A DNA stretch of 64,000 nt, taken from positions 2,326,289 through 2,390,288 of the forward strand of contig NZ_KE356561.1 of NCBI RefSeq assembly GCF_000415985.1, given 5' to 3'. A model generated the notes under the pieces. That model was not told where the DNA came from. It was given only the letters and a program-made list of their open reading frames with translations, and ran no database searches. Of this stretch, positions 56,330 through 58,286 are shown one piece after another. Source of the stretch: Haloquadratum walsbyi J07HQW2 (GTDB lineage: Archaea > Halobacteriota > Halobacteria > Halobacteriales > Haloferacaceae). A program made the position numbers and the translations under genes. Positions within the stretch are counted from its first letter, which is position 1, and each line of letters begins with the position of its first letter.

Positions 56330-57136
56330 TCATGTCTGAGTATCAGCTTTGTCAGTGAGCGCATGACCACAATGACGACAATATTGGTCAGTGATGATAA
56401 TAGTCTCCTCACACTCTGGACAGTTGGTCTGATGTGCTGTTTTAATATCTGTATCGGGTGCTTGCAACCGACTTGCTAGCCATGGAACAAGCACGAATCC
56501 AACAAGCACTGCGATGACTGTGACCCACCGACCGATGACTGTTTGTGGGACAATATCACCGAACCCAACCGTTGAGACAGCAATGACGGTATAATAAAAT
56601 GCATCACCGAAATTTGAAATTGCTTGATTTGCGGGAGCCTCAACAGCGTATATAAATCCAGTTGCAACAATGAATATCAGTAGAATCGTTGTTGATACTT
56701 CCAATTGCCGGACTGTCCGTATATCAATTGACTTCCCAAATATCTGTTGTTCATCTATTATCAACCGAAGAAAGCGAAATACACGGAGGATATGAAATCC
56801 ACGGAGAAATCCAATATCAGGTCCAAAAATAACGAATACCGGAAGAATGGCAATAAGATCGATAACCGTGTATGGGTTTGTTATCTCTGCGCTTGGATTC
56901 GGTGCAGAGGTCACTCTGATAATGTATTCAAGCAAAAACACAACCCCCAGAGTGATTTCAAGAATACGAATGACGGTTACGTACGGTGTTGAAATAGCAT
57001 ATGTCGAGATAATATACAGGCTGATAAATACTATATTGAGTACATATAACCCCGCATTTGTCGCCCGTCCTGCCGGTGTTTTACGATCTCGGAGGAGGAA
57101 ACCAACCGTTTCAAAAAGTCCGTTGAGCGTTGTCAT
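56330..57136 (-). CDS. Voltage-gated K+ channel homologue with C-terminal zinc ribbon
   Basis: This 268-residue membrane protein has six hydrophobic segments. S4 is a voltage-sensor-like helix with Arg every third position (RGFHILRVFRFLRLI). The pore loop holds the K+ selectivity filter TVGFGD after a short pore helix (AFYYTVIAVS). After S6 a cytoplasmic tail carries a zinc ribbon made of CPEC and, 12 residues on, CRHCG, ending in HAL. That tail replaces the more usual RCK domain. Its ATG overlaps the TGA of the lipoprotein gene (57133-57136), so both are read together. Confidence 0.9.
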   Translation of the reverse strand: MTTLNGLFETVGFLLRDRKTPAGRATNAGLYVLNIVFISLYIISTYAISTPYVTVIRILEITLGVVFLLEYIIRVTSAPNPSAEITNPYTVIDLIAILPVFVIFGPDIGFLRGFHILRVFRFLRLIIDEQQIFGKSIDIRTVRQLEVSTTILLIFIVATGFIYAVEAPANQAISNFGDAFYYTVIAVSTVGFGDIVPQTVIGRWVTVIAVLVGFVLVPWLASRLQAPDTDIKTAHQTNCPECEETIIITDQYCRHCGHALTDKADTQT

Positions 57137-57567
57137 GTCCGCTCATCTTGACAGTTGACCGCAACGACGTTGACAATGTAGCTATCAGTATTTTTGATAT
57201 CTCGCGCATTATCGCTCACTCGATGTGTGATTATTTCTCCTCCGTCGACGGTCTCTGTGACGGTCGATCGCCCAGTTCGCGCATCAATTCCAAGCGAAGT
57301 TCCCTGTTCAAAAATGACCTGTAGCTCATAACTAATTGGATTTGATCCCTGATTTTCTACTTGGAGTTCAACAACTGGATGCACCTCACCACCAACTGTA
57401 GCCGCTATCTGCTTGATCTGTAGATCATCCGCACAGGGTGGCTCATCGGGAATCGTGATCTGTTGCTCACTCGATTCAGATGCTGTGGTCATACATCCTG
57501 TGAAGACACTCCCAGCACTGACAATACCTATCCGAAGTAAGTCGCGTTTCGTCAGATCACGTGTCAT
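57133..57567 (-). CDS. Putative lipoprotein upstream of the K+ channel gene
   Basis: This 144-residue exported protein has an N-terminal signal with a lipobox (GSVFTGCM), giving a lipid-modified Cys near residue 25. The start KRDLLRIGIVSAG is Tat-like but has only one Arg before the hydrophobic core, so Sec or Tat export is open. The mature part is a small beta-type domain: EVHPVVELQVENQGSNPISYELQVIF looks like an immunoglobulin-like or DUF-type fold. It ends in a lone VNCQD. Its TGA overlaps the channel ATG (57133-57136), so a functional pairing is plausible. Confidence 0.72.
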   Translation of the reverse strand: MTRDLTKRDLLRIGIVSAGSVFTGCMTTASESSEQQITIPDEPPCADDLQIKQIAATVGGEVHPVVELQVENQGSNPISYELQVIFEQGTSLGIDARTGRSTVTETVDGGEIITHRVSDNARDIKNTDSYIVNVVAVNCQDERT

Positions 57568-57785
57568 TAATTCACACTGTGAGTGACGACTGTATGAATC
57601 TGTATCTGTTTATCAATGGACAATGATTGCCGATAGCCGCTCAATATGAATATACTGTGACGTCGGTAACAAAAAGCAGCCAATATAGTGGCTTCTGGAT
57701 AATAATATCTTTGTGAGTACAGTTTTGATGATAAAGAATCGACCAGATAGTTCACGGTCTGAGTCGTGGGCAGTCCACACACAGA

Positions 57786-58286
57786 CTACCGTATCGTATC
57801 AAGACTGGTTGTAAGTTGGTCGCGCGTTGCAAGTCCAGTTTGAAACCGATTAATAAGCTCTGATTGATGCTCAGAACATGCGAGGATTGCGACGCCGCCG
57901 TTTCCAATAGGAATAACCGGATGATTAGGTGTTCGCGGTGCGAGCTGACAACTTGGACAATTGACGCCTCCAGCAGGCAGATACTCAACGACTTGAGCAG
58001 CCTCATCGCTCGTCAATCCGCAAACTGATGCAAATTCTTCGCGATGGTCCGAACATCCAACGATTGGGATCGTGAGTGCATCTAATAATAAAAATGCAGT
58101 TGTCTCCCGTGTTGCCTCACGAAGTGCAGATTGACACTCTATACAGCCAATCGCAGGCTCACCGGTTGGGAATCCATCTTCATCTGTTGGCTGAGGGGAA
58201 TCAAACTCTGGTATTGGCGATTGGATTGGGTCTGAGATATGAGATTTATCTTTATCTTCCTCACTGTTTCCATCATCATCGCTCAT
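57786..58286 (-). CDS. Uncharacterised Cys-rich protein, two zinc-binding modules
   Basis: This 166-residue protein has an acidic, low-complexity start and two repeated Cys modules. The first is CIECQSA with a later CSDH (about 30 residues). The second is CPSCQLAPRTPNHPVI with a later CSEH, so each repeat has a CxxC and a C-x2-H. The repeats share the pattern VGC/ILACS-x-H with the flanking hydrophobic strand. The unit resembles a duplicated zinc-beta ribbon, but I do not recognise a named family. A short divergent spacer separates it from the endonuclease gene. Confidence 0.7.
   Translation of the reverse strand: MSDDDGNSEEDKDKSHISDPIQSPIPEFDSPQPTDEDGFPTGEPAIGCIECQSALREATRETTAFLLLDALTIPIVGCSDHREEFASVCGLTSDEAAQVVEYLPAGGVNCPSCQLAPRTPNHPVIPIGNGGVAILACSEHQSELINRFQTGLATRDQLTTSLDTIR

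Follow-up and report, generated by a model that had tools for sequence, protein, structure and literature searches.

We describe here a pair of overlapping genes on the minus strand of a 64,000-nucleotide stretch of Haloquadratum walsbyi J07HQW2 (positions 2,326,289 to 2,390,288 of contig NZ_KE356561.1; hereafter the window), which has 47% G+C and belongs to a source genome of one 3.59-Mb contig. The downstream gene (56330..57136) encodes a 268-residue Kv-like potassium channel with a four-cysteine (Cys4) ribbon behind its last transmembrane helix, and the upstream gene (57133..57567) a predicted lipoprotein of 144 residues. At a probability of roughly two in three, we read the pair as a homotetrameric Kv-like channel with structural ribbons under its gate, ahead of which a rare lipoprotein gene arrived in Haloquadratum, so that the two genes share expression.

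A Kv-like channel with a Cys4 ribbon behind S6

Relatives of the channel were collected in a scan that matched 592 stretches and from which, out of 515 relatives, the 80 best loci were kept; 73 of these gave usable channel frames (7 were dropped), resulting in an alignment of 74 rows including the window protein. By record, the aligned relatives belong to Methanobacteriota, Nanobdellota, Woesearchaeota, Bacteroidota, Pseudomonadota, Thermodesulfobacteriota and others. The window protein is, judged by sequence and predicted fold, a Kv-like potassium channel, which would assemble as a tetramer and be gated by voltage. In Pfam it matches Ion_trans_2 (5.6e-16) and Ion_trans (1.2e-15), with 57.8 bits against a curated cut-off of 25 for Ion_trans and 58.6 bits against one of 22.5 for Ion_trans_2. 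The S4 arginines and the TVGFGD motif pointed out in a preliminary description of this DNA are both in place: the selectivity filter (residues 189-194; 56555..56572, minus strand) is invariant in all 74 sequences, and the S4 positions R112, R118, R121 and R124 (56765..56803, minus strand) are basic in 73, 74, 73 and at least 62 of them. The AlphaFold2 model built on this alignment, with a predicted local distance difference test (pLDDT) score of 88.6 and a predicted template modelling score of 0.81, places helices at residues 21-44, 50-77, 88-100, 108-128, 139-166, 176-188 and 200-225, which fit S1-S6 and the pore helix. The protein thus combines an Ion_trans domain above cut-off with six transmembrane helices, a pore helix, a basic S4 and a K+ filter, and Foldseek matched the model to Kv, KCNQ and Slo channels.

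This layout, together with the S4 charges and the filter, is shared with KvAP of Aeropyrum pernix and with eukaryotic Kv channels. Congruently, a channel profile searched against the PDB retrieved chains of Kv4.2 (6.6e-25) and the voltage-gated channel chains 2a0l, 6uwm and 1orq (about 1e-18), which we take to be KvAP. Among the best 60 of the 311 PDB matches, however, the alignments to solved Kv structures do not reach the ribbon and have ended by roughly profile position 241. The best curated family is NF040645, hyperpolarization-activated voltage-gated potassium channel, presumably of the MVP type, which all 74 members match at E <= 0.001; the window protein scores 76.4 bits, below the cut-off of 300, and the 203-position model covers its residues 37-212 and excludes the ribbon.

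The ribbon itself (C239-G257, CxxC-10-CxxCG; 56366..56422, minus strand) starts about a dozen residues after S6 and consists of C239, C242, C253 and C256, with predicted strands at 236-238 and 245-247 and a pLDDT of 73-85 over residues 231-260. The preliminary description had proposed a two-knuckle zinc ribbon in place of an RCK or cyclic-nucleotide domain, and this is borne out: both CxxC knuckles are present, and Pfam lists no RCK or cyclic-nucleotide family for the window channel, nor is there one among the 22 families listed for the 74 relatives. The four cysteines would then be the zinc ligands. Prokaryotic K+ channels gated through RCK or cyclic-nucleotide-binding domains (CNBD) likewise carry a cytoplasmic regulatory module after the pore, whereas the window channel has neither family there. 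Close homologues retain the feature. The cysteines are invariant in the 19 channels of a first alignment, and the Cys4 set is complete in 72 of the 74 aligned sequences, window included, from archaea and bacteria alike; the exceptions are L067, in which Phe replaces the first cysteine, and L082, which lacks the tail. Based on this conservation, the Cys4 ribbon is a family trait of related archaeal and bacterial channels, which together make up a large prokaryotic family that for the most part has no name. No paper in the searchable literature, which left out most subscription papers, was found to describe a Kv channel whose C-terminus forms a zinc ribbon. The exception L082, a ribbon-group haloarchaeal channel from Haloferacaceae archaeon XH8 with the tail wholly missing, represents a natural tail deletion.

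Distribution and phylogeny of the ribbon

Since the query held the ribbon, a less biased check was made in 185 genomes of the class Gammaproteobacteria, that of the Stutzerimonas record. Matches at E <= 1e-20 occur in 38 of these genomes and a full-length member (about 1e-88 or better) in 8, with the full ribbon at all 8 loci, and the ribbon members are separated from the other channels by a gap from 1e-88 to 1e-53, although the profile in this search also held the ribbon and its ranking therefore favors ribbon carriers. In the next 22 loci (L187-L208), the filter was readable in 20, of which 14 have a single CxxC and 6 none, as counted by an automatic pattern over the first 110 tail residues; L196 carries a CPHCG past that limit.

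We then turned to a tree built without the tail, comprising 124 rows, in which the window protein is represented by its closest relative, L042. The group of the window's relatives holds 51 rows, of which 49 have the full ribbon, one has half and one lacks it. A mostly bacterial group carries the full ribbon in 33 of 33, and a third group of 40 rows has 33 half ribbons and 7 without any. The full-ribbon label changes 3 times on this tree, against a mean of 35.4 when shuffled. As judged from these sequences, full-ribbon channels form two large groups, and the third usually keeps one CxxC knuckle. The tree is rooted at its midpoint, and the full ribbon may have had one origin or two. In addition, six-frame translations of the channel loci, with flanks of 1.5-3 kb and less at contig ends, contain 115 distinct TVGFGDI channels.

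The half-knuckle prokaryotic Kv channels resemble the window protein in their six transmembrane helices and in the cysteine pair after S6; they differ in having TVGYGD, one CxxC per subunit in a single CPxCG tail, and a separate clade. With one CxxC per subunit, a Cys4 site would need two subunits, which suggests that zinc sites of this group might lie between subunits. Channels of the TVGYGD type with a single CPxCG-type knuckle were seen in haloarchaea (L152-L171, 19 of 20 loci) and in the class Gammaproteobacteria (L187-L204, 14 of 20 readable loci by the automatic pattern above). In one of the two other genomes that hold the gene pair, a second ribbon-type channel gene looks split, with parts at G099:C3:1101982-1102521 and 1104247-1104471 about 1.7 kb apart, as if interrupted by an insert.

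The overlapping lipoprotein gene

The two open reading frames lie on the minus strand exactly as first described and share ATGA at 57133..57136, the stop of the lipoprotein gene and the start of the channel gene. This junction of -4 nt recurs in all three genomes that hold the pair (G000, G099 and G100), despite divergence of the genes to 69-78% identity. For the channel gene, the pairwise ratios of nonsynonymous to synonymous substitution rates lie at 0.145-0.172, and for the lipoprotein gene at 0.143-0.24; both genes are under purifying selection in these Haloquadratum-type genomes.

The lipoprotein begins with a signal peptide (57493..57567, minus strand), a hydrophobic stretch followed by a lipobox-like FTGC, whose Cys25 is invariant in all four rows of the lipoprotein alignment. 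A canonical Tat signal has a twin RR, in place of which the window protein and its two closest homologues have KR. The lipoprotein matches no Pfam family at its cut-off and no NCBIfam family, the best hit of a PDB sequence search had an E-value of 0.16, and Foldseek returned nothing at <=1e-3. The structure model, based on two sequences, is weak, with a pLDDT of 54, and has six strands in residues 49-137; VIA-align matched this model to assorted beta-sandwiches with a best Z of 8.9, which we read as a common arrangement. A specific fold identity was accordingly not upheld. The product is most likely a rare haloarchaeal beta-sandwich lipoprotein, separate from the channel family.

The earlier proposal of an accessory subunit or sensor-channel complex was put against a survey of 170 family genomes (channel at E <= 1e-10, lipoprotein at E <= 1e-3). 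The channel occurs in 68 of these and the lipoprotein in 11; 9 hold both, and the two genes are adjacent only in the three Haloquadratum-type genomes, leaving 59 of the 68 channel genomes without the lipoprotein. An obligate lipoprotein-channel pair was rejected on this basis. In the six genomes where both genes lie apart, the distance is about 1.0 Mb on one contig in G077, the contigs differ in G001, G002, G098 and G156, and more than 1 Mb separates the lipoprotein of G096 from the closest channel match on its contig. Two further genomes, G092 and G071, have the lipoprotein without a channel at the survey threshold, and a class search of G071 showed a tail fragment only. Several of these genomes are drafts, 68-82% complete. 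Thus, of the expected conservation of the pair, the overlap kept in three genomes stands and adjacency elsewhere in the family does not; a complex general to the channel family is not supported, while an accessory role confined to Haloquadratum is possible.

Wider searches gave the same picture. The lipoprotein profile matches 10 of the 391 genomes of the class, and in the six-frame translations, within the flanks of 1.5-3 kb or less, it matches beside a channel in the three pair genomes only. A lipobox filter flagged 5 of the 133 channel loci (repeats of the same genome included): L013, L014 and L042 are the pair itself, with L014 and L042 from one genome, and L069 and L097 apparently reflect a spurious frame and a piece of some other protein. 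No partner gene is kept beside the channel across genera. In four species of one genus (L021, L026, L030 and L039) the channel is preceded by a similar gene for a multi-pass membrane protein, which seems to us to resemble the AI-2E family exporters; channel neighbors hence differ between lineages.

Directly upstream, a promoter-like block (57568..57606, minus strand) abuts the lipoprotein ATG. It contains the palindrome TCACAGTGTGA and is identical in 32 of 39 columns across the three pair genomes, and beyond these 39 bases the intergenic region is barely alignable. The block occurs once in its own genome at <=3 mismatches, and a regulon was accordingly rejected. A sigma-70 scan, a method unsuited to archaea, gave 9 sites against 5.4 (standard deviation 2.4) in shuffles. 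Room for a separate promoter of the channel exists solely inside the lipoprotein gene. In Haloferax volcanii, strict translational coupling is reported at ATGA overlaps in one study (PMC6728339). In another, complex subunits are the products of 45.2% (253/560) of same-strand pairs with a spacing of -8 to +10 nt, compared with 51/910 distant pairs (PMC10666635). Taken together, the conserved -4 nt junction, the promoter room and the H. volcanii data make shared expression likely and a complex possible. The two genes are likely to form one coupled transcription unit, read as a single transcript, and by analogy with H. volcanii translation of the channel is probably coupled to that of the lipoprotein gene. 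Just upstream of the pair, a gene at 57786-58286 (minus strand) encodes a 166-residue protein. It contains several pairs of cysteines, has no Pfam match and is kept in each of the three pair genomes.

Competing explanations and implications

In the explanation that we favor, the pore would be built from four subunits, with S4 as the voltage sensor and one ribbon per subunit suspended beneath the inner gate. The zinc there would most likely have a structural role, fixing the ends of S6, and it may also link these ends to gating. The lipoprotein gene would have moved directly ahead of the channel recently, in the Haloquadratum lineage; with a shared transcript and coupled translation, channel output would follow the lipoprotein promoter. 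Several observations weigh against this account. The alignment rows are the best matches to a ribbon-containing alignment, which biases the 72 of 74 upward, though the scan used pore peptides. The tail matches the Pfam zinc ribbons UPF0547 (3.9e-05) and DZR_2 (7.2e-04) below threshold only, with a best score of 24.1 bits against a cut-off of 29. The channel ATG has, by eye, no strong Shine-Dalgarno sequence ahead of it, and the frequency of complexes among close pairs of the H. volcanii type argues for a true subunit.

Such a subunit, whose beta-sandwich would sit on the outer face and tune the pore or the voltage sensor, with a stoichiometry set by the overlap, would also agree with the retention of the ATGA in diverged genes and with two products that would face or cross the same membrane. 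Against it stand the many channel genomes devoid of the lipoprotein, the six in which the genes lie apart and the two with the lipoprotein but without the channel. Moreover, the most conserved stretch of the lipoprotein, VIFEQGTSLG...ARTGR, is for the most part retained by L006, an unlinked homologue, and is therefore not specific to a channel partner. We consider an accessory or sensor subunit in Haloquadratum unlikely. The data give no support to an obligate sensor-channel complex, and the survey lowers the prospects of complex formation, which is at most possible from these sequences.

Zinc in Cys4 ribbons is usually tightly bound and structural, which counts against a sensor whose four ribbons would be loaded or emptied according to the zinc or the redox state of the cytoplasm and would thereby open or shut the pore; nor was a conserved extra ligand or redox partner seen beside the channel. 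The position directly after S6 and the near-invariant cysteines nevertheless fit such a sensor, which we regard as somewhat doubtful. Zinc sites in T1 domains are found in Kv2-4 generally. A study of Kv3.1 offers a precedent, with zinc-coordinating T1 residues beside the gating machinery and the cysteines in a cytoplasmic region close to S6 and to the S4/S5 linker (PMC9287412). The T1 domain is, however, large, lies at the N-terminus and has a Cys/His site, in contrast to one tiny C-terminal Cys4 ribbon per subunit here, and no homology is claimed. Very unlikely, in our view, is a ribbon that tethers the channel by binding nucleic acid or some other protein of the cytoplasm: the neighbors of the channel include no partner gene conserved across genera, and the ribbon surface, save for Cys and Gly, varies between clades. 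A bolder synthesis, clearly improbable at present, would see an ancient zinc collar under prokaryotic Kv gates, with full Cys4 ribbons in two clades and inter-subunit Cys4 sites in the half-ribbon clade, where zinc staples or gates the tetramer in a T1-like manner and the Haloquadratum channel additionally gained a lipoprotein subunit through the overlap.

The regulation of most prokaryotic Kv channels is poorly known, and a ribbon after S6 recurs in both archaea and bacteria. If zinc sets assembly or gating in these proteins, the ribbon would add a gating module to RCK, CNBD and T1, one for which the searchable literature yielded no description. The Haloquadratum pair, in turn, represents a clean natural case for distinguishing an ATGA overlap that marks a protein complex from one that marks mere shared expression.
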